In this document: one piece after another, positions 1,404-63,950 of the stretch
Layout: each line of letters opens with the position of its first letter
How positions within the stretch are numbered: the stretch's first letter is position 1
NCBI GenBank assembly: GCA_024734495.1
Contig: JALMQS010000030.1
Coordinates: 11,944,378-12,008,377 of the forward strand
Origin: Forficula auricularia
Lineage: Eukaryota > Arthropoda > Insecta > Dermaptera > Forficulidae
Length of the DNA stretch: 64,000 nucleotides
Reading direction: 5' to 3'
Made by a program: the position numbers and the translations under genes
The notes under the pieces: model-generated
What the model saw: only the letters and a program-made list of their open reading frames with translations
The model's database searches: none
What the model was told of the DNA's origin: nothing

Positions 1404-1448
1404 TCTCGATATATATATATTTCGGGTGACTAACCCATCTTCAGGAGA
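1404..1448 (-). ncRNA. Hammerhead-ribozyme-like motif, left satellite arm
   Basis: On the minus strand: core CTGAAGA (1444-1438), an extra T, stem II GGGT/ACCC with loop TAGTC (1436-1424), GAA (1423-1421), a 12-base AT palindrome replacing stem III, and cleavage-site C at 1408. The bases before the core (TCTC) pair with GAGA after the C, giving a 4-bp stem I. All canonical core positions are present. A single RNA could fold stem III as an AU hairpin or pair it with a second copy. Confidence 0.6.
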
Positions 1449-1482
1449 AACAGAAAGTAACTGACCTGGATAAGTCGAAATT

Positions 1483-2018
1483 GAATACAAGTCAATGGTA
1501 AAATTTATTTTTTAAGATAACAAAAGGGTAAATATTTAAAATTAGTGGAGGGAGAAAAGGTAGGAAGTCTACTTTTGTTTAATTTTGAATGGCCTTTTGA
1601 GAAATGAGGATTTCGAATTTGAATACAACTCAATGGTAAAATTTATTTTTTAAGATAACAAAAGGGTAAATATTTAAAATTAGTGGAGGGAGAAAAGGTA
1701 GGAAGTCTACTTTTGTTTAATTTTGAATGGCCTTTTGAGAAATGAGGATTTCGAATTTGAATACAACTCAATGGTAAAATTTATTTTTAAGATAACAAAA
1801 GGGTAAATATTTAAAATTAGTGGAGGGAGAAAAGGTAGGAAGTCTACTTTTGTTTAATTTTGAATGGCCTTTTGAGAAATGAGGATTTCGAATTTGAATA
1901 CAACTCAATGGTAAAATTTATTTTTAAGATAACAAAAGTGTAAATATTTAAAATTAGTCGGAGACAAGGTAGAAAGTCTACTTTTGTTTAATTTTGAATG
2001 GCCTTTTGAGAAATGAGA
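1483..2018 (+). repeat. 138-bp satellite, left arm (about 4 units)
   Basis: Unit starts (GAATACAA) fall at 1483, 1621, 1759 and 1896, a period of 137-138. The last unit is cut at the inversion point near 2018. Confidence 0.9.
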
Positions 2019-2020
2019 TT

Positions 2021-4512
2021 GTATTCAAATTCGAAATCCTCATTTGCTCAAAAGGCCATTCAAAATTAAACAAAAGTAGACTTTCTACCTTTTCTCCCTC
2101 AACTAATTTTAAATATTTACCCTTTTGTTATCTTAAAAATAAATTTTACTATTGAGTTGTATTCAAATTCGAAATCCTCATTTCTCAAAAGGCCACTCAA
2201 AATTAAACAAAAGTAGACTCCTACCTTTTCTCCCTCCACTAATTTTAAATATTTACCCTTTTGTTATCTTAAAAATAAATTTTACCATTGAGTTGTATTC
2301 AAATTCGAAATCCTCATTTCTCAAAAGGCCATTCAAAATTAAACAAAAGTAGACTTTCTACCTTTTCTCCCTCAACTAATTTTAAATATTTACCCTTTTG
2401 TTATCTTAAAAATAAATTTTACCATTGAGTTGTATTCAAATTCGAAATCCTCATTTCTCAAAAGGCCACTCAAAATTAAACAAAAGTAGACTCCCTACCT
2501 TTTCTCCCTCCACTAATTTTAAATATTTACCCTTTTGTTATCTTAAAAAATAAATTTTACCATTGAGTTGTATTCAAATTCGAAATCCTCATTTCTCAAA
2601 AGGCCACTCAAAATTAAACAAAAGTAGACTCCCTACCTTTTCTCCCTCCACTAATTTTAAATATTTACCCTTTTGTTATCTTAAAAAATAAATTTTACCA
2701 TTGAGTTGTATTCAAATTCGAAATCCTCATTTCTCAAAAGGCCACTCAAAATTAAACAAAAGTAGACTCCCTACCTTTTCTCCCTCCACTAATTTTAAAT
2801 ATTTACCCTTTTGTTATCTTTAAAAAATAAATTTTACCATTGAGTTGTATTCAAATTCGAAATCCTCATTTCTCAAAAGGCCACTCAAAATTAAACAAAA
2901 GTAGACTTCCTACCTTTTCTCCCTCCACTAATTTTAAATATTTACCCTTTTGTTATCTTTAAAAAATAAATTTTACCATTGAGTTGTATTCAAATTCGAA
3001 ATCCTCATTTCTCAAAAGGCCACTCAAAATTAAACAAAAGTAGACTCCCTACCTTTTCTCCCTCCACTAATTTTAAATATTTACCCTTTTGTTATCTTTA
3101 AAAAATAAATTTTACCATTGAGTTGTATTCAAATTCGAAATCCTCATTTCTCAAAAGGCCACTCAAAATTAAACAAAAGTAGACTCCCTACCTTTTCTCC
3201 CTCCACTAATTTTAAATATTTACCCTTTTGTTATCTTTAAAAAATAAATTTTACCATTGAGTTGTATTCAAATTCGAAATCCTCATTTCTCAAAAGGCCA
3301 CTCAAAATTAAACAAAAGTAGACTCCCTACCTTTTCTCCCTCCACTAATTTTAAATATTTACCCTTTTGTTATCTTTAAAAAATAAATTTTACCATTGAG
3401 TTGTATTCAAATTCGAAATCCTCATTTCTCAAAAGGCCACTCAAAATTAAACAAAAGTAGACTCCCTACCTTTTCTCCCTCCACTAATTTTAAATATTTA
3501 CCCTTTTGTTATCTTAAAAATAAATTTTGCCATTGAGTTGTATTCAAATTCGAAATCCTCATTTCTCAAAAGGCCACTCAAAATTAAACAAAAGTAGACT
3601 CCCTACCTTTTCTCCCTCCACTAATTTTAAATATTTACCCTTTTGTTATCTTTAAAAAATAAATTTTACCATTGAGTTGTATTCAAATTCGAAATCCTCA
3701 TTTCTCAAAAGGCCACTCAAAATTAAACAAAAGTAGACTCCCTACCTTTTCTCCCTCCACTAATTTTAAATATTTACCCTTTTGTTATCTTTAAAAAATA
3801 AATTTTACCATTGAGTTGTATTCAAATTCGAAATCCTCATTTCTCAAAAGGCCACTCAAAATTAAACAAAAGTAGACTCCCTACCTTTTCTCCCTCCACT
3901 AATTTTAAATATTTACCCTTTTGTTATCTTTAAAAAATAAATTTTACCATTGAGTTGTATTCAAATTCGAAATCCTCATTTCTCAAAAGGCCACTCAAAA
4001 TTAAACAAAAGTAGACTCCCTACCTTTTCTCCCTCCACTAATTTTAAATATTTACCCTTTTGTTATCTTTAAAAAATAAATTTTACCATTGAGTTGTATT
4101 CAAATTCGAAATCCTCATTTCTCAAAAGGCCACTCAAAATTAAACAAAAGTAGACTCCCTACCTTTTCTCCCTCCACTAATTTTAAATATTTACCCTTTT
4201 GTTATCTTTAAAAAATAAATTTTACCATTGAGTTGTATTCAAATTCGAAATCCTCATTTCTCAAAAGGCCACTCAAAATTAAACAAAAGTAGACTCCCTA
4301 CCTTTTCTCCCTCCACTAATTTTAAATATTTACCCTTTTGTTATCTTTAAAAAATAAATTTTACCATTGAGTTGTATTCAAATTCGAAATCCTCATTTCT
4401 CAAAAGGCCACTCAAAATTAAACAAAAGTAGACTCCCTACCTTTTCTCCCTCCACTAATTTTAAATATTTACCCTTTTGTTATCTTTAAAAAATAAATTT
4501 TACCATTGACTT
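2021..4512 (-). repeat. 139-bp satellite, right arm (18 units, inverted)
   Basis: Unit starts (GTATTC) fall at 2021, 2159, 2295, 2432, 2570, 2708, 2847, 2986, 3125, 3264, 3403, 3540, 3679, 3818, 3957, 4096, 4235 and 4374, ending at 4513. The older units by the inversion are 136-138 bp and more divergent. Those from 2708 outward are nearly identical at 139 bp, except one 137-bp unit at 3403. The pattern suggests recent array expansion. Confidence 0.92.
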
Positions 4513-4552
4513 GTATTCAATTTCGACTTATCCAGGTCAGTTACTTTCTGTT

Positions 4553-4595
4553 TCTCCTGAAGATGGGTTAGTCACCCGAAATATATATATCGAGA
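4553..4595 (+). ncRNA. Hammerhead-ribozyme-like motif, right satellite arm
   Basis: This is the mirror of the motif at 1404-1448: TCTC (4553-4556), core CTGAAGA (4557-4563), extra T, stem II (4565-4577), GAA (4578-4580), a 10-base AT palindrome (4581-4590), C17 at 4591 and GAGA (4592-4595). The AT palindrome is two bases shorter than in the left arm; the core is unchanged. Confidence 0.6.
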
Positions 4596-4676
4596 TTAAA
4601 GATTCTCCAAAAATAAATTCGTTTTATTTTTTTATATCTTAATGTGAAACCTACCAAGTATTTTTATCCAATAATT

Positions 4677-5342
4677 CTATCTATACTTATTATAATCGGC
4701 TTGCTCAACGGGGCCGACGTGATTTTTTTGAATTTGAAAACCCATTAATTTTCATGACAAATAAATCCCTGGCCAGCAAAATGCCGGCCGAAGGCGGACT
4801 TCGCACCTTTGGTTTTATAAATATCATGAATAACGTAAAATAAGTAGATTTAAGCCGAGCCTAAATAGTTTTGAAACTTTGCGAGGAATGTTAGAACATT
4901 TTTTTTCACTTTAAAAGACATTATTAATAAAGTTAAGGCAATGACATTTTTTTTCAAAAGACATGATTTTTATTATTAAAGTTTTTTGTCAATAAATCAT
5001 GAAAATGTGATTGATTTCATTTTAAATTGAAAAATATATTAAAAGAGAAAAACAAACGTTTAAAAACATAATTTATTTTACACTTCACTAGAGAGAAGAA
5101 AATAAAGTTGTCTTTAGTGCTCTAAAAATTTATATTCTCACTTGACTAAAAATATAAGCGTAAGGGCTTATTATTTCAAATGAATATATCAAGTGAAAGA
5201 GGGTTCAGGGGTCAAACGCGCAATGTCAATTTTTTGTCAAAAGTGTGATCCTGAAGCATTTGAAGGAAACTATTAAGTAGTAGTTTCATTTTTGGAAAAA
5301 GGCATTATATTAAGCTTAAAATGACGGGAAAAGTTTTGCTAT
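4677..5342. other. AT-rich; degenerate Helitron-like 3' hairpin at 4771-4805
   Basis: GCCGGCCGAAGGCGGACTTC near 4782 resembles the GC-rich terminal hairpins of the Helitrons at 11437, 54227 and 61062, but lacks CTAG. The rest is AT-rich with no gene seen. Confidence 0.35.
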
Positions 5343-5421
5343 ACAACAGTAAAAAATTGTTTTTTTAAAGAATTGTTTTTGAAGGAGACAATAAAAGAGT
5401 ATGTCTTCTGCTGTAATTATA

Positions 5422-5882
5422 ATTTTTTTTTTTTTTTTTTATGATATTGATGTGAGAAGGAGATACACCCCAGGTAACCACAATATCCTAAGAATATTCT
5501 AAGGATATTCTAAGGACATTTAAATCTTCTTAGAATATTCTGAGGATATTGTGTGTAACCTGGGACCAGAAGGTGGATCCCCTAAAGGCCTGTATGGGCT
5601 GGCCCCTCCATCGTGAAAAGAACAGAGTAGAAGGAAAAGAAGCCGGGATCACGAGCCAATCTCAGAAACTTAGATACAATTCAATATCCAATTTACTAAG
5701 GTTTTAGGGGCTTCGAGCAGTGGTAAATTCTCCGCGCGATAAATTCGGCTAAATTTATCTCCCACTTAATTTTTATTACCAGACCCTATACTTACAGAAA
5801 AAATGTCTGGGTATAGCCGGGAATCGAACCCGAGACCTCCGGGTTGCCAGTCAGTTATTCTGACCATTACACCACGGAGGCG
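5422..5882 (-). mobile_element. tRNA-derived SINE, full-length copy 1
   Basis: Read on the minus strand, the head near 5882-5812 has a box-A-like GTGGTGTAATGGTCAG and box B GGTTCGATTCC. It is followed by an AT-rich body, a CTCCTTCTC segment and a poly(A) tail (the T-run at about 5423-5440). Internal promoter boxes and an A-tail are the mark of a tRNA SINE. The anticodon arm does not pair properly, so this is not a working tRNA. The body matches 7550-7799. A 96-bp palindromic MITE is inserted at 5469-5564. Confidence 0.75.
5469..5564 (+). mobile_element. 96-bp palindromic MITE, copy 1 (TSD AC)
   Basis: The element runs from CCCAGGTAAC to GTAACCTGGG and is a near-palindrome rich in GAATATTC. 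The second SINE copy at 7585 gives the empty site (GATACACCAGAAGG). Comparison shows a 2-bp duplication, AC, at 5467-5468 and 5565-5566. Three further 96-bp copies lie at 17798, 46629 and 54538. Confidence 0.85.
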
Positions 5883-5890
5883 GATAGACG

Positions 5891-5940
5891 ATAACGAGAC
5901 TATAGTTTCGAGGGCTTTGCCCTCTTCATCAGTCTATTAC
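5891..5940 (-). ncRNA. Hammerhead-ribozyme-like motif (ACTATAGT class)
   Basis: On the minus strand: core CTGATGA (5932-5926), extra A, stem II GAGGGC-AAA-GCCCTC (5924-5910), GAA (5909-5907), palindrome ACTATAGT (5906-5899) and C17 at 5898. In stem III, AC/GU closes a UAUA loop, or all 8 bases pair in a dimer. Stem I pairs AG with CU, then a bulged A, a U-G wobble and AAU/AUU. All core bases are intact. Confidence 0.65.
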
Positions 5941-6000
5941 AATGGATTCACAGGAATTAATTAATTTATTAATTCATAAATTAATTCCTGTAAATCCATT

Positions 6001-6050
6001 GTAATAGTCTGATGAAGAGGGCAAAGCCCTCGAAGCTATAGTCTCGTTAT
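6001..6050 (+). ncRNA. Hammerhead-like motif, slightly altered right-arm partner
   Basis: Core CTGATGA (6009-6015), extra A, the same stem II (6017-6031), GAA (6032-6034), then GCTATAGT (6035-6042) and C17 at 6043. Position 15.1 is G instead of A and the base before the core is T. The closing pairs of stems III and I are therefore weakened compared with 5891-5940. Confidence 0.5.
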
Positions 6051-6133
6051 AAATAAATACAATTTATAATTCCAGCAGAAGACACACTCTTTTATTGTCT
6101 CCTTCAATATATAAAAATTCTGCTACTCTCGGC

Positions 6134-6520
6134 AAAAAACTTTCAATTTAAGAATTGTTTTTGTTGACAATACGTCGTTTTTACTAATTTGAAAATACAA
6201 TTTTATGGAAATTTAGAAAAGTGTATTTTTCTAGTTTTTAGTTCATTTTAAAACAAGAGTCTTTTTTAATTTCAAAAAATGTTTAAGAAAATGTTTCCTA
6301 TTTTGTTAAATATGTAAATATAAAATATCTCTTTTTGCGCCCCTCCGTCATGAGTGAAAATTTCATATAAAAGCCTGTTATGAGTAAATTTTCGATTTTG
6401 ATTGGAAAATAAAATTCTAGTTCCACTAAAATGATACTTTTAGTTAAATTTGTATGTATTTTATAAAAAATATATAATAATAAGATTGGAGTAATTTTTG
6501 GAGACGGACTGATAAGTGAA
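6134..6520. other. AT-rich, nothing recognised
   Basis: I see no ORF with family similarity and no clear repeat shared with the rest of the window. Confidence 0.4.
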
Positions 6521-6586
6521 TTAAGTGGATATTGATGAGGCAGTCCAAAAAAAGAAGAAGATAATTTACACTATCTTTTTATTCAT

Positions 6587-6630
6587 AAAACCGACGTTTC
6601 GGAGGCTATTCCCTCCTTCTTCAGGGTTTT
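6587..6630 (-). ncRNA. Hammerhead-ribozyme-like motif (ACGT class), perfect stem I
   Basis: On the minus strand: AAAACC (6630-6625), core CTGAAGA (6624-6618), extra A, stem II GGAGG/CCTCC (6616-6601), GAA (6600-6598), palindrome ACGT (6597-6594), C17 at 6593 and GGTTTT (6592-6587). The 6-bp stem I is perfect. ACGT has no room for a loop, so stem III can form only between two RNA molecules, as described for dimeric Penelope-associated hammerheads. Confidence 0.65.
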
Positions 6631-6824
6631 GAAAAGTCAGTGAAGGAAATCCAATGCGGCATTCCCCTCTGTCTCCTCTTTCAGTGGCAGTAACAATAAT
6701 ATCTTGTATTTCATTCTCAGCAGAATTATAATGTAATGCTGAGAATTATAATTATGCTAGAATATGTATTGTTACTGCCACTGAAAGAGGCAGAGTAGCA
6801 TTGATTTCGCTTCACTGACTTTTC

Positions 6825-6864
6825 AAAACCCTGAAAGGAGGGATAGCTCCGAAACGTCGGTTTT
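6825..6864 (+). pseudogene. Decayed hammerhead partner (core deletion)
   Basis: The stem I strands AAAACC and GGTTTT, GAA, ACGT and C are all retained. The core reads CTGAAAGG because the GA of CTGAAGA is lost, and stem II is shortened. The motif is probably inactive. Confidence 0.6.
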
Positions 6865-6926
6865 ATGAATAAAAAGATAGTGTAAAGTATCTTCTTCTTT
6901 GGACTGCCTCATCAATATCCACTTAA

Positions 6927-7207
6927 TATATAATAATTTCGTTAAAATATCTCTGAAAAAATATATTTTTATACCCTTCTCAGTGGCCTAACTAAGCTTA
7001 CTACCTACTCTAAATGTCTAATTTTAATTTTATTATTGAGATGGAATCGTAGGAAGTTGGACAAAAAAAATTAAATTAAAAATTTGAATGTAACAAGTTA
7101 AAATTTTGTCAAGTGCAATATATTAAATACTATTAACCTCATCAAAATGAGTTGCTTGTACGATATACTTGGACCATATACAATAATGTGTTTGTCAAAG
7201 TATCTGA
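6927..7207. other. AT-rich, nothing recognised
   Basis: No gene or shared repeat seen. Confidence 0.35.
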
Positions 7208-8402
7208 TTCCGCGACATTTCAGCGCCTGACAAAATATCCCCCGACAATATATCCCCGAAAAAATATCCTTCAGACAAAATATCTCATGACAAAATAACC
7301 CTTCCTCGCGTGTATCTTATGAGTAATGCAAATCGACTCCGGTTCGAGTTAATATAAATTCAGTTCGCCTCGGTTGGGTTCGTATAGCTCCTTTTCGGGC
7401 TGGTTTTTAGACAGTTCGGTTGGTAGACGCCAACCAAACCGTCTAAATGCCAGCCCGTTTTTAGACGGTTCGGTTTTGGTAGACGCCAACCGGAATCGCC
7501 AGCCCGAAAAGGAGCTATACGCACCCAACCGAGCCGAACTGAATATATTTTTTTTTTTTTTTTTTTTAATGATATTGATGAGAGAAGGAGATACACCAGA
7601 AGGTGGATCCCCTAAGGCCTGTATGGGCCTGGCCCCTCAATCGTGAAAAGAACAGAGCAGAAGGAAAAGAAGCCGGGATCACGAGCCAATCTCAGAAACT
7701 TAGATATAATTCAATATCCAATTTACTAAGGTTTTAGGGGCTTCGAGCAGTGGTAAATCCTCCGCGCGATAAATTCGGTTAAATTTATCTCCCACTTATA
7801 ATATATTAACCGAACCTCCGAAAGTTTAGGCGGGGTGGGTTTCGGGCTCCCATTTTTTCTAATCAAACACACATTGCAAAGCGAACCAGCCAATCGTCGG
7901 GCCGGGTGTGTTTGGGGCGCTATATTTTCGCCCAATATTATAATAATAATTAATAACGACAATGATTAATAATTATTAATGAGGTCGTCCCAAGAAAAGA
8001 TGTCATGACGATCTGGAAGAAACAAACCTATATGTTTAAAAACAAGAAGAAGAAGTAGATGATTAATAACACTTTTAACAAACAATCAATAATTGTGTAA
8101 TGTAAAAATAAACGATAAATAGTTAAATATAGATGATAAATACTATATTATAGATAGTAAAAATAATAAATTGTTAGCTAGAGAATCTAACGACAGACAG
8201 CAGCACTTTCAAACGGCTAATTAGCCGCCAAAATATGAAAGTCTGTTTATATTATTCAAAACTATGATTATAAGCAGGACTTAATCTTTTTTGTATTCTC
8301 CCTTATACTGGCGAATATTTTGTCAGAAGATATTATGTCGGGGGATATTTTGTCCTTGGGATTTTTGTCGGGGATATTTCGTTGGGGGCTGAAAACGCGC
8401 GG
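7208..8402. mobile_element. Family G TIR element, copy 1 (carries SINE2)
   Basis: The ends are TTCCGCGACATTTCAG and an inverted GGGGGCTGAAAACGCGCGG. Subterminal short repeats of the type GACAAAATATCCCCC occur on both sides. The centre has inverted segments (GGTTCGTATAGCTCC and GGAGCTATACG). The shorter copy at 40481-41174 lacks the SINE. There is no transposase, so the element is non-autonomous and its superfamily unassigned. Confidence 0.7.
7550..7799 (-). mobile_element. SINE copy 2, 5'-truncated, with 8-bp TSD
   Basis: It matches the body of the SINE at 5422-5882 but lacks the tRNA head. The T-run at its left end is the A-tail of the minus-strand insert. AATATATT occurs at 7542-7549 and 7800-7807, and family G copy 2 (near 40748) shows the uninterrupted target. 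The truncated 5' end fits target-primed reverse transcription. Confidence 0.8.
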
Positions 8403-9772: not shown

Positions 9773-10389
9773 TACACTACGGTACAAAAAAATCGAGCCA
9801 CCAAAAAAAATTTATTAAATATGAAATTATTTTTAAAATTGCTACAAATAACCATATAATTTGTTTTATTAACTCTTAAACTAACATATTCAATAAATAT
9901 TGTTGATAATTTTTGAATTTTATAAAAAAAATAAATAAAATTAAAAGATACAATTACAAATTATCATACTTTCTCAATATCGCTTTATCTATATAATAAA
10001 AATGAATTTCTGTTTCTGGACCGATTCGGCTAATTTTTTTTTTAAATGTTCGTAATAGTCCATTTCAGGTTAATACGTAAAAAAAATAAGTTGCCCGGAA
10101 AATTGCAAAATTCAGGAAAAACTAAAAAATTTCAGGTTAGCCAACATAGCTTGCCAAATAATAAAAGAACTAAACTAGCAAAAAACAAGTGTTGGCGGCC
10201 CTGTTTGTAAGATTTTTGAATGTCATTCATTCTCAATAGTTCTAACCACATTATCGTTGAAGAACTTAATACTGCATTTTTACAAAAGTATTTATTAAGT
10301 AACATTTTTATTATTTTATTTTATTTTATTTTCTCAAATTCTTTTTTACTTATGGAAAGTGGTGTAGGTTTTAGGTGAAACATGATGTT

Positions 10390-11090
10390 AGTTAATAGAG
10401 TAAAGGGTGTGTAGTTTCACAGTGAATGAAATAAAACTCAAAGAGGTTTATACAAATCATATATTACAATATATAATATCATACAATAAATTCAAATCAC
10501 GCGCCTTCAGTCTTCTAAAATAAATGACATTTTGATATATGAGATAACCACAAAAATTGTTGTATATTGTAATTTATCTCATCTAATTTATCCCTATTAT
10601 GTTTTATCTTAATTCTTCATCTCTATATGTTATTTAGGCTTATTTGTAAATTGATATTTATAATTAATTTTGTGTCTATGACTTAAATTTGTAATTTTAT
10701 TTTCTAATCTAATTCTAAAAAGACTTTATATTTATACTTGTAATTTTTATTAATATTAATATTCATATTTACTTAGACTTCTTATATTTACATTTATATA
10801 TTTTATAATTAAAAAAGAACAATCTTTGTAAAACAATTTTTTAAATTTTAAATTTTCATTGGTGTTTTTCTTGTGTTAGGTTGGTATGTAAGATTTGAAT
10901 GTTATATTTTGTTATATTGGTAACCATGATTTGAATGTCAAGAATGGCGACCACTCGTTCAATTATTATTAGTTTTAACTTGTAAACTCCTGATGATGGA
11001 CTAATAATCCGAAATATATTGAGTTTGTATAAACCTCTTTGAGTTTTATTTCATTCACTGTGAAACTACACACCCTTTACTCTATTAACT
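10390..11090. mobile_element. Fold-back element inside Helitron 1
   Basis: Arms 10390-10456 and 11024-11090 are 67-bp inverted copies (GTAAAGGGTGTGTAGTTTCA). The right arm adjoins a hammerhead motif at 10981-11029; the left-arm partner is not recognisable. The interior is AT-rich and non-coding. Confidence 0.75.
10981..11029 (+). ncRNA. Hammerhead-ribozyme-like motif with 9-bp stem I
   Basis: Stem I strand TGTAAACTC (10981-10989), core CTGATGA (10990-10996), extra T, stem II GGA/TCC with a 7-base loop (10998-11010), GAA (11011-11013), palindrome ATATAT (11014-11019), cleavage-site T at 11020 and GAGTTTGTA (11021-11029). Stem I is nine pairs including two wobbles. Its sequence is unrelated to stem I at 6587 although the fold is the same. 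Confidence 0.65.
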
Positions 11091-11529
11091 TTCTCAAATT
11101 CTAAATATTTATTTTTTCCAAATAATAAATACAATATGATAATTATTTTGTCAAAGTTTTTTATGAGAAAAAAAATTAAAAATGGTAATCATTGAGAAAT
11201 TTTCGGTTTTTGCGAAAAAACTAATTAAAGATAGGTTTCAAAAAGGCTTATCTATTTTTTTAAAAGTACATTTAAATTGCAGTTAATAGAATCTTAAATT
11301 ATATCTATTTAAGACTTATAATAAAACAATTATATTTATTCTCTGTAACTGTAATCAATAAAGCAGCCACGTGGGGGTCCAGGGGGCGTACCCTCCTGGG
11401 TAGCAAATGGCCCGCCGAAGGCGGGCCTTGAAGCTAGTATCTAAATAAAAGATCAAATTCCATTTGAAATATGAATAAAATGAATAATTTTGAATTAAGC
11501 ATCATTGATAGAAAAATAAAATATTCAAA

Positions 11530-13462: not shown

Positions 13463-13463
13463 C

Positions 13464-13535: not shown

Positions 13536-13542
<7 letters not shown>

Positions 13543-13637
13543 TGAAAGTTTTTGCCGAGAGTAGCAGAATTTTTATATATTGAAGGAGACAATAAAAGAG
13601 TGTGTCTTCTGCTGGAATTATAAATTTTATTTATTTA

Positions 13638-13688
13638 TAACGAGACTATAGTTTCGAGGGCTTTGCCCTCTTCATCAGTCTATTACAA
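13638..13688 (-). ncRNA. Hammerhead-ribozyme-like motif (ACTATAGT class)
   Basis: Identical in core to 5891-5940: CTGATGA (13678-13672), extra A, stem II GAGGGC-AAA-GCCCTC (13670-13656), GAA (13655-13653), ACTATAGT (13652-13645) and C17 at 13644. Stem I is the same bulged helix. Confidence 0.65.
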
Positions 13689-13789
13689 TGTATTCACAGG
13701 AATTAATTTATGAATGAAAGGTTAACATTTTTCATGTGGTAAGGTTATAAATTACATAGAGTGGGCAAGTTAAGAATTGACACTTATAC

Positions 13790-13972
13790 TTGTTTTATTA
13801 TTTTGCCTGTAGTTGGTGTGCATTTGCAGACCATTTAATTTCCGAGAAACATTGTTTTCCAGATGAATCAAATATTAAATTAATTAGATCAGAATTAGAT
13901 CCCTTAAAAATTAGTATTTTCGAATCGTTAGAAATTTTAAAATCATACAATAATTCACCAAAAAATTCTTAA
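13790..13972 (+). pseudogene. Penelope-like GIY-YIG endonuclease C-terminal remnant
   Basis: The open stretch reads CAFADHLISEKHCF, then a variable segment, then IFESLEILKSYNN and a stop. An S/CxFAxHL...H block followed by a hydrophobic strand and a (K)xxxFESLEIxK helix is what I expect at the end of the GIY-YIG domain in Penelope-like polymerases. There is no ATG in the proper place (the frame opens at TTG) and the catalytic GIY and YIG strands are absent. It lies between hammerhead arms, as expected for this class. The match is from memory of the family; no alignment was run. Confidence 0.5.
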
Positions 13973-14239
13973 ATCGTAAAATAGAAATTCCCGAAAGCTT
14001 TATTTTAAAAATAGCTGCTAAAATATAAACTTCACGAACGCCAACTACAGTCAAAATAATAAAACAAGTATAAGTGTCAATTGGCGTGTTGGATGCGGAA
14101 AACGGCGCATGCTGTAGAACAAACCGCTTTATTATTATTATATAAGTGTCAATTCTTAACTTGCCCACTCTATGTAATTTATAACCTTACCACATGAAAA
14201 ATGTTAACCTTTCATTCATAAATTAATTCCTGTGAATAC

Positions 14240-14280
14240 ATTGTAATAGACGGATGAAGAGGGCAAAGCCTCGTTATAAA
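14240..14280 (+). pseudogene. Broken hammerhead partner
   Basis: The core is CGGATGA instead of CTGATGA. The 3' side of stem II, GAA and the ACTATAGT palindrome are deleted, so the sequence jumps from GGGCAAAGCC to TCGTTATAAA. Confidence 0.7.
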
Positions 14281-14384
14281 TAAATAAAATTTATAATTCC
14301 AGCAGAAGACACACTCTTTTATTGTCTCCTTCAATATATATATATATATTATATAACAATTTTTGCTCGTTTAATAAGAGTAGA

Positions 14385-17578: not shown

Positions 17579-18062
17579 ACTTAATTTTGGGCCCATTAGC
17601 AATTAATAAAACCTTCTTTTAATTATGAGACTATTTTATTAGAAATATCAGTTTTCTTCAATTTTTATTTGAAAATACTTTTACAATATTTATTATGTAA
17701 ATAATTGTGAGAATTTGTTAGTGGTATTGATAAATGGTAGGTACGGTGTTGCCGCCATGTGGTAGAAACTAAAGCAAAACGGGTCAATGTCACAAATCCC
17801 AGGTAACACACAATATCCTCAGAATATTCTAAGAAGATTTAAATGTCCTTAGAATATCCTTAGAATATTCTTAGGATATTGTGGTTACCTGGGATGTCAT
17901 ATGTATAATCAAAGAATATTAAACATTTATTCGATTATTTAAACCTCATTAGATATTATATGAAGTTGTTTTTATTTTGTTTTTATTAATATGTCATTAA
18001 AAAAAATTGACTGTCCAAAGAATCTAATGAGCTAGTTCAAGCTTTTAATCACAAGTTGGCGT
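17579..18062. other. AT-rich spacer containing a 96-bp MITE
   Basis: Apart from 17798-17893, no feature recognised. Confidence 0.4.
17798..17893 (-). mobile_element. 96-bp palindromic MITE, copy 2 (TSD AT)
   Basis: CCCAGGTAAC...GTTACCTGGG, inverted relative to copy 1 and flanked by AT on both sides (17796-17797, 17894-17895). Confidence 0.88.
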
Positions 18063-21261: not shown

Positions 21262-21722
21262 AAGATAAATTAAATGGATATTAACACAAGTGGAATTAAC
21301 TGAAGGTTTTCTACATTTTATTCGATCGCGACTCTAATGTAGGGAATTTTTGTCAAATATTGAGTGAAAATAATATTTGAACTTATATATTTCTAACTTG
21401 AAATAATGATATTAAATAAATTTTAATTTTCTCATTAATATATCAAAGAATAATTGATACGTCAACAAAATTATTTTGACCGCGCTGATTTGAAAAAAGA
21501 TATTTTTATCTCGCGAGACTACTGCGGATTACGCTATTGGAGTCTGCGTCTGGTCCAGACTTAATACTCCGCAGACTCCAATAGCGTAATCCGCAGTAGT
21601 CTCGCAGATAAAAATATCTTTTTTTCAAATCAGCGCGGTCAAAATAATTCTTGTTGACGTATCAATTATTCTTTGATATATTAATGAGAAAATTAAAATT
21701 TATTTACAAGTGGAATTGTTCC
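21262..21722. mobile_element. Family M element with 292-bp near-perfect palindrome
   Basis: The segment 21414-21705 folds on itself. The arms include CTGCGGATTACGCTATTGGA and its mirror, with the centre near 21559. A one-arm relative lies at 62508-62790. No protein is encoded. Confidence 0.75.
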
Positions 21723-21884
21723 TGTGTCTCATATTACGTAATTATATTTATTGCTGAAGATGGCCAACCAGTGGTGACCGAAATTATTTAATGAATACTC
21801 GTACACAAATATAGGTAAATTAAGAGAGCTTTAGTCCTATATTTTTATTAAATGAGGATTTTAAAAATAAAGTGCGGACTTTTT
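21723..21884. other. Short spacer with a weak hammerhead-like string
   Basis: CTGAAGATGGCC...GACCGAAAT near 21753-21784 resembles the core and GAA. Stem I does not pair and the cleavage-site rule is not met. Confidence 0.3.
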
Positions 21885-23033: not shown

Positions 23034-23341
23034 CAAATCAAATTCAGAGTTTATTAATAAAACAGTTGAAAAAATAGAAAAAAAAGTTATAGTTAAGAAA
23101 AAGTTTTAATTTAATTTAACTCTCAGGAAAAAAGCTAAAATTTGGTTCATTTTATGAAATTTGCGTAACAATTTTCAACTCATTAACTAAAACCTTTCAA
23201 GATTTGCATTTTGTAAAAAGCTATAATTTAATATGTAAAATATTGCATGATTTTATAGAAATTCTGAATTAGAGTTGAAAAATTCTGATTTTAATTTTTA
23301 AAATCCTGAATTTGATATGGAAAAGTCCGAATTTGAAATTA
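23034..23341. other. AT-rich, partly shared with 59210-59550
   Basis: The AAAACCTTTCAAGATT and AATTCTGAATT blocks recur near 59350 and 59450, so this is old repeat DNA. Confidence 0.45.
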
Positions 23342-23460
23342 TTTGATAAAAATACTTGGTAGGTTTCACATTAATCCTTAATGTGAAACCTACCAAGTAT
23401 TTTTATCCAATAATTTTAAAAAATGTTTCACCAAGTACCAACACCAAATTCCTTAAAAAC
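23342..23460. mobile_element. Satellite-free relative of the 1281-4676 fold-back
   Basis: TACTTGGTAGGTTTCACATT is joined through four bases to its own inverse and then extends with the outer TTTCACCAAGTACCAACACC seen at 1281-1322. It lacks the hammerhead and the 139-bp units. Confidence 0.75.
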
Positions 23461-23627
23461 TTCCGAATTTGAAGTTAAAAACCTACCTATATCAAATCAG
23501 GATATATTATTAATTTTATTTTAACAGCCCAGTCGCGCAAAAGACATGTTATCTATATTTATTTCATCATTTACTATTATTATATTCTGATTAATGACAT
23601 TGAAAATTACTGACTAGAACGGTAGGC

Positions 23628-32658: not shown

Positions 32659-33379
32659 TTTTAACCACCTTCATTCGTATATTTTAATTTTTTCCTTTAA
32701 ATATTCTGGTGCCAAACTGTCTCTTATCCTGGAATCATACATTAGCTAAATTGCAATATATTGCCTTTCTACATTGAGAAAATTTCGAGTATTGTACATC
32801 ATATTAATACTGGTGTATCTATACATAAAGATAAGAGTAATAGATAGTTTAGCTAATATGGATTTGTTATGAGTTAGTGATATTAGTCACTTATTTCACA
32901 ATAAAATTTTAACTGAAATAAGGACCGTAGATCCTAACTATAGTAAATCCACATTAAATAAAATATTTATTTACTTATCTTTATTAAAGATGTTTCACCT
33001 TGCACCAACATCACAATCTCTACTGAGTATCTATTACATTTTGCAATTATTCTCATGCATACATTTTGTTTTAATTACAACTCTTAATCAGAAAATCAGA
33101 AGAATATTTAGCCATGTTTTGAACAAAAAGTGAAGTGAGGCTCTATTAGAGATTTATAGTAACAATAATTTTGTATTGAATGATCAAATTTTCTCTCTAC
33201 ATCTAATAGTGTAGAGTTAGCTAGATATTTTATTTATAATATACTTTGCATGCATTTCGAACCTGATCCTACAATAAAATGTTAAAACTTTACGAAGCAA
33301 TATAAATAAAGTGCTTAATTTTTTGCAGTGTTTTATAATTAACAAAACATACTTCTTAAATGAATTTCTTGGAGACCTA
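32659..33379. other. AT-rich, nothing recognised
   Basis: No gene seen. Confidence 0.35.
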
Positions 33380-33465: not shown

Positions 33466-33891
33466 TATATATACATTTATAAATAGAATCTGTTTCTAGA
33501 AAACAGTTATAATTTGATAAAATTCACGGTTAGGTTTTTTTTTGGATTGACATTTCGATCTGTCACGGTCTCATCTTCGGCTAAGTTGTTTTTGATAGGC
33601 TTTTTATTAATTGAAATAATTATTCACAGGTGGTTGTTTAAATAAAAATATAATTACATTTTTATTCAATTTCCTTTTTAACTAATTAATTGTTTTTTTT
33701 TATTTAAATTCAATTAATAGATCATTATAAATATTATTATATATTAGAATTTGCTAATTCGATTAATTGGAGGTAATGTATTATTGATACAATCATAAAG
33801 TTAATATTAATATGATCACTTTGAACCAAAGCCAAAAATTAAAGAGCAACGCTCAGTTTTTCCAGCTACGATTACTTAATGACGAGCGGTT
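33466..33891. other. AT-rich with one weak hammerhead-like string
   Basis: The minus strand near 33590-33555 reads CCGAAGATGAGACC...GATCGAAATGTC. The core has a C for T and stem II is poor. Confidence 0.3.
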
Positions 33892-44623: not shown

Positions 44624-44756
44624 ATGTGAAAATGATAAGAAAACCTAGTAGACCACTAGCGAAGAGGAATAAGAAAAATGATTTTGCGAATATGGAAATA
44701 ACGAGGGGGAGATATCGAAGATCAAGGATCATATAAAAAAAGGTGAGCATAGAGTA

Positions 44757-45629
44757 ATGGATTTGGGAGAGGAGGTGAATAAATTAAAAAATGAATTCGA
44801 AAAAATAATAAAAAAATTAAAAGATGATTTGGAAGAGGAAAAAAACAAGAGGATAGAGTTGGAAGAAATAATAAAAAGGAAGGAAAATTCGGAAAAGGGA
44901 AGTGATTTCGAGATTAATAGGAATATTCAATTAGCAGACGTGGGAAAATTCCTTCCGGTGTTTAGAGCTCTCCCAGAGGAAGATCCGAAGTTATTTTTAA
45001 AAAAGGTCGAGAATACTCTATTAAAATATAAAGTACCGGAATATGTTTGGCTCATGGTGGTTTCGGATCAGTTGTTAGATAAGGCCAAGACATGGTGGCG
45101 GGTGGTCAATCAATTTCCAGCGTTGGATTGGAAAGATTTTAAAATGAAATTTCTCCGAGAATACGATAGTTTAATCGTAGTCTCAAAGTTAAAGGTTATG
45201 TTTTATGAGGAGAAACAGAGAAAAGACGAACCTATAAGGTTATTTATTGAGAATAAGATGGCTTTATATAAGAGAGTTTTTCCGGACGAAGATGCTGGTG
45301 CAATCCTTCAAGTTTTAGTGGAGATGATTACTCCACGTGTTAGATCGTCCATTAGGGGAATGAAATTCACTGATATTGAAGGGTTTATGCAGACGGTAGA
45401 AGAAATAGAAAGGGATTTAAAGGATATGGATAAAGAAGAAATAGAAAGGGATTTAAAGGATATGGATAAAGAAGAGAAGACAAGTCCCACTCAGGATAGA
45501 AGTTGCATTCAGGATAGACGTTTTTGTGGATTCTGTAGGCGGGAAGGACATGGGGAAGACACTTGCTTCAAGAAGGGAAACGAGTGGAGGGGCAAGGAAA
45601 AAGGGAGTTCCTTGTCCAAAAAGCAGTAG
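44757..45629 (+). CDS. gag: Gag-like capsid/nucleocapsid protein
   Basis: 290 residues. Residues 1-45 are charged heptads, probably a coiled coil. Residues 60-210 match the Retrotrans_gag pattern, with a KTWWRVV core at 111-117 and KFLREYD at 131-137. A 36-bp tandem duplication (45399-45470) repeats EEIERDLKDMDK at about 215-238. Residues 257-270 form a CCHC zinc knuckle (C257, C260, H265, C270), which binds RNA in the particle. The ATG follows a 130-base leader after the primer site. The frame is intact, so the protein could still be made. The downstream frame overlaps in -1. Confidence 0.85.
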   Translation: MDLGEEVNKLKNEFEKIIKKLKDDLEEEKNKRIELEEIIKRKENSEKGSDFEINRNIQLADVGKFLPVFRALPEEDPKLFLKKVENTLLKYKVPEYVWLMVVSDQLLDKAKTWWRVVNQFPALDWKDFKMKFLREYDSLIVVSKLKVMFYEEKQRKDEPIRLFIENKMALYKRVFPDEDAGAILQVLVEMITPRVRSSIRGMKFTDIEGFMQTVEEIERDLKDMDKEEIERDLKDMDKEEKTSPTQDRSCIQDRRFCGFCRREGHGEDTCFKKGNEWRGKEKGSSLSKKQ

Positions 45630-46628: not shown

Positions 46629-46724
46629 CCCAGGTAACCACAATATCCTCAGAATATTCTAAGGATATTCTAAGGACATTTAAATCTTCTTAGAATATTC
46701 TGAGGATATTGTGTGTTACCTGGG
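46629..46724 (+). mobile_element. 96-bp palindromic MITE, copy 3 (TSD TA)
   Basis: CCCAGGTAAC...GTTACCTGGG with TA at 46627-46628 and 46725-46726. Confidence 0.88.
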
Positions 46725-50330: not shown

Positions 50331-50884
50331 TCTATTATTAAACGAGCAAAAATTGTTTGTATATATATTTGTATATATATTTATATATATATTTGTATCA
50401 TTGTTCTATTTTGAAAACGGCTTTATCGATTTTGATGAAACAAATTCTATTAACAAGTTTTGAGGATGAGAAAGCAATTTGGCTAGGTCTGGACCTCGAC
50501 AAATTTAATCTTAATTGATCTTTTCTTAATTAAAGTAATTATTGACAGATGAAAATCTCAATAAAAAATTTTGTTTAGATTTTTTTCAATTATGTTTTAT
50601 TTTTAATTGGTTTTTTAATTTTAAAACCCACTAATGGGTTATAGCAAATATTAATACATATATATTAAAATTAGGAATTTTTTGTTTGTTTTTAATTAAC
50701 AGGTGTCTAAATCATAACAAAACAGGTGTGTTTACAAATAAAGAGGTTGAAGTGGCTTTTTTTATATAACTTGGAAACAAATCTTATTTAATTTTGTGTT
50801 TTTATTTCAGATCCTATACGATTATTTTTTTTATTATTTTTTCCCTATTTATTTTACCGTGCATCGTTTGATGGCTCCAGGTAC
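50331..50884 (+). mobile_element. Family B element, copy 5 (short)
   Basis: TCTATTATTAAACGAGC to ATGGCTCCAGGTA. It lacks the C-rich section, and its 5' end abuts a TA run. Confidence 0.7.
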
Positions 50885-50943: not shown

Positions 50944-50990
50944 CAAAGTCGACGTTTCGGGGTATTCTTCCCTCCTTCGTCAGGCTTTTG
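50944..50990 (-). ncRNA. Hammerhead-ribozyme-like motif (ACGT class)
   Basis: Core CTGACGA (50983-50977), extra A, stem II GG-A-GG/CCCC (50975-50959), GAA (50958-50956), ACGT (50955-50952) and C17 at 50951. Stem I pairs TTC-AAAGC with GaCTTTGAA, with one bulge on each side. Flanks resemble 6521-6926, but no opposite arm was found. Confidence 0.55.
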
Positions 50991-51969: not shown

Positions 51970-52020
51970 TCTAGAGACTATAGTTTTGAAGGCATTGCCT
52001 TCATCATCAGTCTATCACAA
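51970..52020 (-). pseudogene. Hammerhead motif with altered G12
   Basis: Core CTGATGA (52010-52004), extra T, stem II GAAGGC-AAT-GCCTTC (52002-51988), then AAA where GAA is required, ACTATAGT (51984-51977) and C17. Loss of G12, the catalytic general base, should abolish cleavage. Confidence 0.6.
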
Positions 52021-52312: not shown

Positions 52313-52331
52313 TCTATATAATAAAAAATAA

Positions 52332-54537: not shown

Positions 54538-54633
54538 CCCAGGTAACCACAATATCCTAAGAATATTCCAAGGATATTCTAAGGACATTTAAATCTTCTT
54601 AGAATATTCTGAGGATATTGTGTGTTACCTGGG
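54538..54633 (+). mobile_element. 96-bp palindromic MITE, copy 4 (TSD CT)
   Basis: CCCAGGTAAC...GTTACCTGGG with CT at 54536-54537 and 54634-54635. Confidence 0.88.
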
Positions 54634-58225: not shown

Positions 58226-58349
58226 TCTTAGAGAAATTTCTCTAAGCGTTGTTACAAATTAATCTAGACAAATATATATATAAAGTATAATAAATTTAAT
58301 ATTCACCTTCCGCATTCTCAATCTATATTCATATAAAATAAATTGACAC
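58226..58349. other. Possible SINE body
   Basis: TTAGAGAAATTTCTCTAA hairpin, then AT-rich sequence. Confidence 0.3.
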
Positions 58350-61219: not shown

Positions 61220-61902
61220 TTTTTAAGAAAAAATAAAAACCGACTTCAAAAATTAAGTGCAACAAATATAAAAATACACTAAAAGGTATAAAATAATTAT
61301 TATCTTATTTAGTTACAACTAAACGACGAAATATTAACACGAAATTACTTTTTAAAGTCGGTGCCAAACAAACTATACCTATAAGCGAGCGTACCCGCCA
61401 AACGTACTAAGTAAGATCCGTCGAGTGCGATTCATAAAAGGTATATGTTTGGCACCGACTTCAAAAAGTAATTTCGTGTTAATATTTCGTCGTTTAGTTG
61501 TAACTAAATAAGATAATAATTATTTTATACCTTTTAGTGTATTTTTATATTTGTTGCACTTAATTTTTTGAAGTCGGTTTTTATTTTTTTCTTAAAAAAT
61601 TTTTTATTTTTCTCTCTTTTTAGTGATGCTATTAATAGTGATCATATCATCAGAACTTGACCAAATTAATATGACACCATCCCTAAGACACCCCTTTCGG
61701 ATAAAAAAGAACCATCGAAATCGGTTCATAAACAAAGAGGTTAGGTCTAAACAAACCTAAACAAACCTAATAAAAAAGGTCTAATACCTATGAAAAAAAA
61801 TCGAAAAAAAAATGGGACCAATCGGAAGCTAGACTGGACCCAATGCAAAAAAAATTTTCAAAATCGGTTGACAATTGGCGGAGATATGAGGTAACATAGG
61901 CA

Positions 61903-61936
<34 letters not shown>

Positions 61937-61975
61937 CAATCGAATAGAGAACCTCCTCCTTTTTTGAAGTCGGTT
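61220..61975 (-). mobile_element. Family F element, copy 5
   Basis: Complete, with hairpin half 61220-61605 and A-run 61902-61934. The best-preserved inverted arms of the family. Confidence 0.78.
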
Positions 61976-62507
61976 AAAAAAAACCTCCAAATTAGAGAGT
62001 CCAAAATCCAAGTGGTGTGCATTGGAAATAAAAACATTTTGCCAACAAAATGAAATTTCTACGATGGTACGCAACTGATATAATAAAATTATTTATAATC
62101 ACCCCCCCCCCCATCTATCATTAATACGCCAATGGTATTGTCAAGATTAAGAAAAAAAATGATAAATATTTTGGAAACTGGTGATACAAACATAATGTAT
62201 AAGTATTTTGATTATTTATGTTCATAAATTAAATTAATCATGTATAAGATTTTAAATTTTATCAAGGAATTTATACAATTATTCGCTCAGTGCGCAACCG
62301 CGCTTACCGCCATTCGTGGCCAAAAAAACAACTTCAGGTACAATAATAGTGTATAAAAGAAATAGGCATTTATGAAAAATAATTAATTTCATAAAAATTA
62401 CAAAATTTAAAAACTAAATAAATAAATCATTTTGGTGATCCATCCGAATGTCTATACGCGAAATGACTTTGGATTGTAGCTAAGTGGATCACATCTTTTT
62501 CTCTCTT
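61976..62507. other. AT-rich, nothing recognised
   Basis: C-run at 62102. No gene. Confidence 0.35.
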
Positions 62508-62790
62508 GGTCCAGACTTAAGACTTCACAGACTCCAATAGCGTAATCCGCAGTAGTCTCGCGATAAATATCTTTTTCAAATAAGCGCGGTCAAAATAATT
62601 ATCGTTGACGTATCAATTATTCTTTGATATATTAATGAGAAAAATTATAAAATTTATTTAATATCATTATTTCAAGTTAGAAATTATTTTCACTCAATAT
62701 TTGACAAAAATTCCCTACATTTGATTCACGATTGAATCAAATGTAGAAAACATTCGATTAAACTACCACTTGTTATCAGCTCAATTAGAT
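62508..62790. mobile_element. Family M element, single-arm copy
   Basis: TGGTCCAGACTTAAGACTTC, CTCCAATAGCGTAATCCGCA and TTGACGTATCAATTATTC match the right arm at 21559-21700 and part of 21300-21400. Confidence 0.65.
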
Positions 62791-62915
62791 TTCGAGTTAT
62801 AACTAAAAAACTAAATTTATGTGATTAAAAGGATAATAAACATAGATAAAAACATAAGGTCTTAGTTTTTTAGTTATAACTCGAGTTATAATTGAACTAA
62901 AAACAAGTGATAATT
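62791..62915. repeat. Short palindrome
   Basis: GAGTTATAACTAAAAAACTA is mirrored near 62857 around an AT-rich loop of about 45 bases. Confidence 0.6.
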
Positions 62916-62941
62916 TGATAATCAAAGAGGAAGCTGTTTTT

Positions 62942-63654
62942 AACCGACTTCAAAAAAGGAGGAGGTTCTCTATTCGACAGATTTTTTTTTTTTTTTTTGT
63001 GCTTATGTTACCTCATATCTCAGCCAATTTGTAACCGATTTTGAAATTTTTTTTGCATTGGGTCCAGTTTAGCTTCGGATTGGTTCCATTTTTTTTTCAT
63101 TGGTATTCGACCTTTTTTGTTAGGTTTGTTTAGGCCTAACTTCTTTGTTTATGAACCGATTTCGATGATTCTTTTTTTATTGGAAAGGGGGTATTTTAGG
63201 GATGATGCCATATTAATTTAGTCAAGTTCTGATGATATGATCACTATTAATAACATCACTAAAAGAGAAAAATAAAAATAATTTTTAAGAAAAAATAAAA
63301 ACCGACTTCAAAAAATAAAATGCAACAAATAAAATACACTAAAAGGTATAAAATAATTATTATCTTATTTAGTTACAACTAAACGACGAAATATTAACAT
63401 GAAATTACTTTTTAAGTTGGTGCCAAACATATACCTTTTATGAATCGCACTCGACGGATCTTACTTAGTACGTTTGGCGGGTACGCTCGCTTATAGGTAT
63501 AGTTTGTTTGGCACCGACTTTAAAAAGTAATTTCGTGTTAATATTTCGTCGTTTAGTTGTAACTAAATAAGATAATAATTATTTTATACCTTTTAGTGTA
63601 TTTTATTTGTTGCATTTAATTTTTTGAAGTCGGTTTTTATTTTTTTCTTAAAAA
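62942..63654 (+). mobile_element. Family F element, copy 6
   Basis: AACCGACTTCAAAAAAGGAG to TTTTTTCTTAAAA, same order as copy 3. Confidence 0.75.
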
Positions 63655-63900
63655 TTATTTTCTATTACGTCAACAAAATATTTTAATTTCAAATATTGCT
63701 GTTTAATATCTAATGGGACTCGAAAATAGGTCAAAATGACCTTTTTCGTCATTTTGACCGATAATATCTCAAAACTCTGACGCGTGTTGTAAAAAATCGG
63801 TAAATTTCATGATGAGAAACAAAGAGGTTGTCCTCTGCTTGATGCAAATAAACATACACACATATATATCGAGATGATATATCTGTATATATATTATTTG
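63655..63900. other. AT-rich spacer
   Basis: GGTCAAAATGACC-type short inverted repeat at about 63730-63760. No gene. Confidence 0.35.
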
Positions 63901-63902
63901 TT

Positions 63903-63950
63903 TGTTTGAGACTATAGTTTCGAAGACTTGGTCTTCTTCATCAGTCATGG
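63903..63950 (-). ncRNA. Hammerhead-ribozyme-like motif (ACTATAGT class), edge copy
   Basis: Core CTGATGA (63944-63938), extra A, stem II GAAGAC-CAA-GTCTTC (63936-63922), GAA (63921-63919), ACTATAGT (63918-63911) and C17 at 63910. Stem I is ATG... 3 bp (TGA/TCA). Stem II differs from 5891 by compensating changes (GAGGGC/GCCCTC to GAAGAC/GTCTTC). A 15-bp-arm palindrome (63946-63980) follows. Confidence 0.65.

Follow-up and report, generated by a model that had tools for sequence, protein, structure and literature searches.

The window, that is, the whole stretch of 64,000 nucleotides of Forficula auricularia DNA analysed here, contains hammerhead-ribozyme-like motifs, many of them borne on inverted arms, and raises the question of what kind of element carries them and how such an element came to be inserted. 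An initial annotation had listed twelve motifs, nine with a complete core.

Hammerhead-like motifs and their core

The window was scanned for structures made up of CUGANGA, stem II, GAA, a stem III closed by an A-U pair, a cleavage site of the form NUH and stem I. GAAA was also demanded, and an extra base was allowed between A9 and stem II, a rule adopted after the motifs had been inspected; dinucleotide shuffles were scored under the same loosened rule. The motifs are given below, with their designation in the initial annotation in brackets.

1408 to 1444, minus strand: hammerhead motif A- (1404-), C3 at 1444, H17 at 1408, score 33
4557 to 4591, plus strand: hammerhead motif A+ (4553+), C3 at 4557, H17 at 4591, score 33
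5898 to 5932, minus strand: hammerhead motif B- (5891-), score 36
6009 to 6043, plus strand: hammerhead motif B+ (6001+), A15.1 changed to G, position 2.1 altered too
6593 to 6624, minus strand: hammerhead motif C- (6587-), score 33
6831 to 6858, plus strand: broken hammerhead motif C+ (6825+), deletions in core and stem II
10990 to 11020, plus strand: hammerhead motif D+ (10981+), score 32
13644 to 13678, minus strand: hammerhead motif E- (13638-), score 39
14251 to 14272, plus strand: broken hammerhead motif E+ (14240+), U4 changed to G, GAA/stem III stretch missing
21754 to 21788, plus strand: hammerhead motif F+, stem II with one mismatch, score 30
50951 to 50983, minus strand: hammerhead motif G- (50944-), C-related, bulged A in stem II, score 26
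51976 to 52010, minus strand: broken hammerhead motif H- (51970-), B family, G12 changed to A, stem II intact
63910 to 63944, minus strand: hammerhead motif I- (63903-), B family, short palindrome on the 5' side, score 30

Nine motifs (A-, A+, B-, C-, D+, E-, F+, G- and I-) passed the scan with scores of 26-39. The nine motifs first described as complete were all found in place and eight of them were recovered in this range, whereas 6001+ deviates: it reads GAAG, which turns the 15.1-16.1 pair into G-U, and was excluded by the GAAA rule. The motif at 21754+ (score 30) is complete and was missing from the first list, so that the two lists differ by one each way. The three motifs called broken (6825+, 14240+ and 51970-) are indeed so, with the base changes, deletions and missing stretch listed above. 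A candidate at 37891- scored 14.5 and was left out of the motif count.

In 300 dinucleotide shuffles, 0.03 matches per shuffle were obtained at a score of at least 25, far fewer than the nine motifs of the window. The best shuffle match scored 31 and exceeds three of the nine motifs (30, 30 and 26); the set is secure against shuffles, and the weak motifs taken singly are not secure on score. In a further scan under the loosened rule, five motifs were found, whereas 200 shuffles averaged 0.065.

The nine scan motifs share the core C3-U-G-A-N-G-A9, G12-A13-A14, A15.1-U16.1 and an NUH site; MAFFT misaligned the cores and the core counts were made without it. The canonical descriptor, with stem II immediately after A9, gave no match in the whole window. 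One additional A/T, which the initial annotation does not mention, lies between A9 and stem II in all 11 aligned motifs; they depart from the canonical spacing, and the scan found motifs only once the extra base was allowed. Stem II varies on both sides yet stays paired (GAGGGC/GCCCTC, GAAGGC/GCCTTC, GAAGAC/GTCTTC), and the G10.1-C11.1 pair is present in 11/11 motifs, while two of five covariation measures are not clearly beyond shuffles (44/500 and 461/500). At most 0-4 intramolecular stem III pairs are possible in a monomer, and when B, E and I are folded as monomers, the bases C3, U4 and G5 are drawn into a competing stem.

Hammerheads in Penelope-like elements (PLEs) were reportedly described by Cervera and De la Pena in 2014. 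They are minimal, without a proper helix III, and located in terminal repeats (PMC6155905); the minimal helix III and the terminal-repeat location are common to the motifs of the window. The window motifs have in addition a single A/T after A9 and before stem II, and other PLE hammerheads may often have one too. Judged by sequence, the motifs are very probably minimal hammerheads of the PLE kind.

The scan with Rfam hammerhead models suggested in the initial annotation was negative, with no match at E ≤ 10 in the window or in 121 bases around C-. The best sub-threshold Rfam matches were microRNA families, located on palindromes. With a covariance model of our own, built on five B-family motifs, E+ came up at E = 9e-6, C- at 8e-4 and D+ at 0.017, but G- only at 1.4 and A+ only at 3.9; A- and F+ did not appear up to E = 10, and a low-complexity match at 50536 (E = 0.0012) ranked between C- and D+. 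A model made from the motifs, as had also been proposed, thus detects C- and D+ across families and the others poorly, and it lends weak support.

The missing Rfam match, the extra core base, the three broken copies and the competing monomer fold would suit a reading in which the repeats act at the DNA level, their ribozyme likeness being decayed or fortuitous, and no RNA is cleaved. Against it stand the excess over shuffles, the double-sided changes in stem II and the existence of minimal PLE hammerheads. Moreover, De la Pena and Flores reportedly described in 2001 a viroid hammerhead with an extra nucleotide in its catalytic core, placed between A9 and stem II and said to be compatible with activity, so that non-canonical spacing does not exclude activity here; that RNA belongs to a viroid, not a retroelement, and resembles the window motifs in position only. 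The hammerhead of PAc, an Anolis Poseidon PLE, cleaves only with the PLE protein (PMC11167929), and hence a failure to cleave at high RNA and Mg2+, which the initial annotation would have counted against the motifs, would not be decisive. We consider this DNA-level reading, with no cleavage at all, improbable.

Fold-back elements and target duplications

The elements, the fold-backs being listed without strand, and their target duplications (TSDs) are as follows.

1 to 78, plus strand: B-family 3' terminus, a further copy, 96% to B, cut by the window start
1278 to 4675: element A, head-to-head PLE-type fold-back of 3398 bp, arms ending in hammerhead and outer terminus; TSD TCTATCTATACT at 1266-1277 and 4676-4687
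5382 to 6149: element B, fold-back with palindromic centre; TSD AAGAATTGTTTTTG at 5368-5381 and 6150-6163
6482 to 6924: element C, fold-back; TSD AATATATAATAAT at 6469-6481 and 6925-6937
10343 to 11089: element D, fold-back; TSD TTTCTCAAATTCT at 10330-10342 and 11090-11102
13536 to 14340: element E, B-family fold-back with longer arms, ends approximate
23338 to 23461: element J, A-family fold-back with palindromic centre; TSD TCCGAATTTGAA at 23326-23337 and 23462-23473

In A-E and J the arms lie head-to-head, with the 3' sides of the ribozymes facing outward. The inverted-repeat setting claimed for all twelve listed motifs holds for nine (elements A-E); no such setting was seen around 50944- and 51970-, nor around the added 21754+, and 63903- has only the short palindrome on its 5' side before the window ends. 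The left arm of B is split by a tRNA-derived SINE-like repeat at about 5436-5888 (limits drawn by eye), and the arms of C differ at 32 of 190 aligned positions (identity ~83%).

Exact TSDs of 12-14 bp directly adjoin the element ends in five of the six fold-backs (A, B, C, D and J); E sits in a (TA)n tract, where a TSD cannot be read. When 66 inverted-repeat pairs, a set without the pairs inside the array of element A, were searched automatically for TSDs, five gave one: A, B, D, K and a pair of low complexity. The TSDs of C and J escaped this search since their arm alignments run too far; they came to light in windows picked by eye. Among random pairs, 50/2000 had at least 12 bp, tandem arrays included. 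AT makes up 51/64 (80%) of the TSD bases versus 69% across the window, which indicates no clear AT preference. Element K has a fold-back and TSD layout like the others without a hammerhead, so the layout by itself does not imply a ribozyme.

Fixed outer ends and variable inner ends

Each of the six fold-backs pairs a short outer end with a long one, in E to the extent that its ends can be read. The long end reaches 40-48 nt further: 46 nt in A, 47 in J, 45 in B, approximately 47 in E, 40 in C and 48 in D. In A and J both outer ends are identical to the base. B and E have a common long end, and the short end of E agrees with that of B where the (TA)n target permits reading. Across copies, the two-end pattern is seen only in A/J and B/E. 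The inner ends vary: J consists of the outer termini alone, both arms stopping 3' of the ribozyme, B is shorter than E, the left arm of D breaks off within the ribozyme, in the stem III stretch, and the interior of A, made of 137-139 bp monomers, has 4.0 copies in the left arm versus 18.1 in the right.

The termini of A and D are modestly similar (0/500 shuffles; J versus D 2/500), a similarity that is not significant when searched over the whole window, and a shuffle comparison revealed no similarity of the B and C termini to those of A and D. In the tails of A, J and D a possible ORF start, MFHxxPTPxS, may be read, which is suggestive only; a similar stretch at 32990 merely equals the best of 30 shuffled windows.

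These ends bear on whether the elements could be Foldback-type DNA transposons, such as Tetris or Galileo, with tandem repeats inside long inverted repeats and hammerhead-like motifs by chance. Tetris has inverted arms holding tandem repeats and 8-10 bp TSDs (PMC4079207), and element A resembles it in its long inverted arms, internal tandem repeats and TSD, while K shows the layout without a hammerhead. However, a transposase needs equivalent inverted ends, whereas the TSDs adjoin unequal ends in 5/5 testable elements. J, a copy of termini only, has both end points of A, and the hammerhead motifs occur across families without detectable terminus similarity; unequal outer ends, ribozyme motifs and a terminus-only copy all separate the window elements from Tetris and its kin. 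An origin as DNA transposons is thus very improbable.

PLE insertions whose arms arose by self-priming (snap-back) of one cDNA, or on an antisense template, demand closer attention. The authors of the Adineta vaga study preferred self-priming on an antisense template (PMC3846280), and the palindromic centres of B and J, the palindrome in I and the arms of E, identical across 110 aligned inner columns, are in line with it. Snap-back predicts mirror-image arms, whereas the monomer counts in A are unequal and its monomers L1-L3 have common differences from R1-R11, the arms of D are internally unequal, the outer ends differ and the TSDs imply two staggered nicks. The monomer distances in A alone do not discriminate two templates from snap-back. 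On balance we hold self-priming to be unlikely, though a serious contender.

Penelope-like anatomy and proposed dual priming

The features found agree with those of PLEs: a minimal hammerhead in terminal repeats and head-to-head inverted terminal copies (A-E and J), a tail at one end (A, B, C, D and J, and E where readable), TSDs in 5/6 and 5' truncation, J and B being shortened inside. Both the anatomy of the insertions and the motif give good support to the link to PLEs drawn in the initial annotation. Its remark that the ribozymes are packaged in fold-backs was borne out as an observation and is not novel, being equal to the inverted-pLTR architecture of Adineta vaga (PMC3846280); hammerheads in PLEs, pLTRs in inverted orientation and the tail have all been published before.

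Penelope families of A. vaga have inverted head-to-head pLTRs, a one-sided tail of 31 bp, TSDs and palindromes (PMC3846280). The window elements share the head-to-head arrangement, TSD, optional tail, palindromes and the capture of unrelated sequence between the copies. They differ in TSD length (12-14 bp versus 8-10 bp) and tail length (40-48 nt versus 31), and no ORF was seen in the window copies; the word hammerhead is absent from that account (PMC3846280).

Autonomous PLEs encode a telomerase-like reverse transcriptase, with or without a GIY-YIG endonuclease. Pfam searches of 10 of the 49 listed ORFs in the window picked up neither a PLE reverse transcriptase nor a GIY-YIG domain, only one gag and a sub-threshold Arc capsid match, and no homologue of the gag ORF was found at E ≤ 1e-5. 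With no PLE protein in the 10 tested ORFs, PLE membership rests on the anatomy. Autonomous copies may be located beyond the window. A search for relatives gave 0 matches in viral and genome contig collections, which hardly hold animals.

Being non-coding and hammerhead-bearing with a type I layout, the elements also recall the metazoan non-LTR retrozymes, small direct-tandem repeats with type I hammerheads copied through circular RNA, and retrozyme-like repeats have been reported from insects and other invertebrates (PMC7229834). Here the hammerheads occur once per arm, inverted, and the structural scan found none in the repeat unit of the array in A. The minimal, mostly palindromic stem III, the one-sided tail and the 5' truncation are likewise out of keeping with retrozymes, and we find an assignment to them scarcely credible.

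Taken together, the fold-backs are very probably short non-coding insertions of PLEs, built of pLTR-type ends, the motifs their minimal hammerheads, and dual priming followed by joining the way in which they formed. From the motifs, head-to-head arms, TSDs, two alternative outer ends and variable inner ends, as read in the sequence, we infer a PLE enzyme as the agent, which would cut both strands of the target. Each target strand would prime reverse transcription within the RNA, at points 66-130 nt downstream of where cleavage is predicted; both cDNAs would extend toward the RNA 5' end, halt at variable points and be joined head-to-head. The outcome would be outward ribozymes, fixed outer ends and a target duplication of 12-14 bp. 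Since a monomer forms at most a few stem III pairs, the predicted cleavage would probably require a dimer or the PLE protein.

With PAc, both target strands are cut and extended, and two internal reverse-transcription starts bound the tail (PMC11167929). The window elements are alike in having the hammerhead upstream of two such putative starts and in the probable use of both strands, but the PAc assays revealed no difference in start between the strands (PMC11167929), whereas here 6/6 insertions combine a short end with a long one. This one-short, one-long rule suggests strand-specific reverse-transcription starts. It is possible, and we propose it tentatively, that integration is strand-assigned, one strand using the proximal start and the other the distal one, and that small non-coding fold-backs whose hammerhead has a one-base spacer between A9 and stem II are the main self-sustaining progeny of these PLEs; every two-sided insertion would then receive one short and one long end.

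If the escape from Rfam models holds for other PLEs too, surveys with those models would undercount PLE ribozymes. These insertions bear on how PLEs integrate and copy themselves. Their clean marks (a TSD, a pair of fixed outer ends that each occur once, and variable inner ends) would allow a counting test of dual priming in any PLE-rich genome.

Hammerhead motifs and their cores

The initial annotation listed twelve hammerhead-like motifs, nine complete and three broken, and proposed to check them with Rfam models and by shuffling. We employed a structural scan of the window whose pattern runs from stem I through CUGANGA and, after at most one extra base, stem II to GAA, stem III (A first, U last) and H17, and closes with stem I. 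Nine positions scored 26 to 39 (13638-, 5891-, 4553+, 6587-, 1404-, 10981+, 21754+, 63903- and 50944-; the sign gives the strand). In 300 dinucleotide shuffles, 0.03 matches per shuffle were obtained at a score of at least 25, with a top score of 31, and the motif set thus exceeds its background; the Rfam hammerhead models give no match. Eight of the nine complete motifs were recovered, while 6001+ was excluded by rule for having GAAG instead of GAAA, and 21754+ (motif F) is a complete match absent from the initial list. The motifs at 6825+, 14240+ and 51970- are indeed broken. Separately, the stretch at 33520-33590 on the minus strand (GAAGATGAGACCGTGACAGATCGAAATGTC) resembles by eye a decayed hammerhead core and lies outside the structural-scan and covariance-model lists.

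A single A or T, which the initial annotation did not report, stands between A9 and G10.1 in all 11 motifs with alignable stem II (the nine scan matches, 6001+ and 51970-; 6825+ and 14240+, both broken, were omitted). Canonical spacing, with stem II directly after A9, was found in no motif in the scan of the window. The extra nucleotide of the viroid hammerhead of De la Pena and Flores is reportedly at the same place and compatible with activity, and an extra base is frequent in other Penelope-like element (PLE) hammerheads. Given this frequency and the already published extra core nucleotide of a viroid hammerhead (De la Pena and Flores 2001), the base between A9 and stem II does not count as a new kind of feature.

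The G10.1-C11.1 pair is present in 11/11 aligned motifs. Between families, stem II differs on both sides with pairing mostly kept, the exceptions being one mismatch in F and one bulge in G (50944-). For five sequences of the family of element B, the observed covariation score was reached by 4 of 500 shuffles, the tally of pairs altered at both positions by 44/500, and the number of pair types by 461/500. The covariation count, drawn from few related sequences, lends modest support to stem II.

Between GAA and H17, all matches except F (eight of nine) have a perfectly palindromic segment; these segments are ACTATAGT, ATATATATAT and a 12-nt version, ACGT, and ATATAT. At most 0-4 stem III pairs are possible in the monomer, and none in element C. 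ViennaRNA predicted only stem I and stem II for the minus-strand motif of C, and in B, E and I (63903-) a preferred stem that sequesters C3, U4 and G5. This minimal architecture has been attributed to PLE hammerheads (PMC6155905), and help in cleavage from a dimer or a protein is therefore likely. The Anolis hammerhead was shown to need protein for cleavage (PMC11167929).

Outer ends of the fold-back elements

The ribozymes of A-E face outward, which places the 3' side of the RNA outside.

Head-to-head fold-back elements: exact duplication at the ends, distance from predicted cleavage site to each outer end, and long minus short end
A, 1278-4675: 12 bp; short end 84 nt, long end 130 nt; difference 46 nt
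B, 5382-6149: 14 bp; long end 106 nt; difference 45 nt
C, 6482-6924: 13 bp; short end 66 nt, long end 111 nt; difference 40 nt
D, 10343-11089: 13 bp; short end 69 nt; difference 48 nt
E, 13536-14340: inserted in a (TA)n tract, duplication unreadable there; long end 108 nt; difference 47 nt (approximate)
J, 23338-23461: 12 bp; difference 47 nt

One short and one long end were found in 6/6 insertions, which would have a probability of 0.016 by our own arithmetic if ends picked freely and equally between two starts; for C and D, which are single copies, the labels "short" and "long" come from a comparison inside one element alone. The sharpest cases are therefore A, J, B and E. Both outer ends are base-identical in A and J, separate insertions of one family, while the long end is common to B and E, and the short end of E is consistent with that of B where (TA)n permits reading. 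The inner ends differ: J consists of termini only, B is a shortened E, the left arm of D stops in the stem III stretch, and the arms of A hold 4.0 versus 18.1 monomers of 137-139 bp.

The best reading of the origin of the fold-backs is that reverse transcription (RT) would be target-primed on both sides, followed by 5' truncation and then by joining of the two cDNAs. Snap-back (self-priming), preferred by the A. vaga authors for their elements (PMC3846280), seems a less likely source of the arms here; in its simple form it predicts mirror arms, but A and D have none. We infer that RT starts may be assigned by strand, and go no further because the Anolis assay showed no difference in start site between strands (PMC11167929), whereas each of the six insertions here has one end of each kind. 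Strand-assigned RT starts were not met in the titles and abstract openings surveyed, in a survey not aimed at that idea, and absence from print is not claimed.

An AC-rich stretch starting ATGTTTCACC is found in the long termini of A (1278-1316), D (10343-10383) and J (23423-23461). Its translation (MFHQVPTPNS / MFHLKPTPLS) could be an ORF start, which would be expected of a tail that extends over the beginning of a PLE ORF.

Other repeats in the window

Further repeats and a coding feature
21298-21705: fold-back element K, with a 12-bp target site duplication (ACAAGTGGAATT) and one end ~115 nt longer, with motif F about 40 bp downstream
5436-5888 and 7663-7817: tRNA-derived SINE-like repeat, two copies, 93.5% identity over the compared 155 bases
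5469-5563, 17799-17893, 46629-46723 and 54538-54632: ~95-bp palindromic element (CCCAGGTAACCACAATATCC...), four copies
44682-45629: ORF for a retrotransposon gag (Pfam Retrotrans_gag, slightly over cut-off)

Element K, which has a relative at 62507-62773, shares the layout of the hammerhead fold-backs but lacks the hammerhead; K could belong to a further PLE family or be of a different nature. The left arm of B is interrupted by the first SINE-like copy, which shows a weak Rfam tRNA match below threshold at 5816-5875 and contains the first copy of the palindromic element. This palindromic element is probably a miniature inverted-repeat transposon. The second SINE-like copy seemingly extends back, by eye, to about 7575. 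Within the gag ORF, a 36-bp tandem repeat runs to 2.2 copies with 100% matches, and a protein search found no homologues of the ORF at E<=1e-5.

Probable relation to Penelope-like elements

The PLE literature documents target site duplications, one-sided extension, and fixed outer with variable inner ends, and all are present here. The A. vaga paper describes head-to-head inverted terminal repeats (pLTRs), one of which bears a 31-bp tail, together with target site duplications and palindromes (PMC3846280). In the Anolis paper, both strands are cut and extended by the PLE protein, and two internal RT start sites bound the tail (PMC11167929). A curation guide names inverted pLTRs and short 3' extensions among PLE features (PMC8969392). 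No PLE domain was found in the 10 ORFs tested of 49 listed. Since the end pattern, duplications and one-sided extension match this literature, the insertions look, by their anatomy, like PLE products. Published work already covers hammerheads in PLEs, inverted pLTRs and tails, as well as non-coding sequence lying between pLTRs, and we file the elements of the window as additional members of a type already known.
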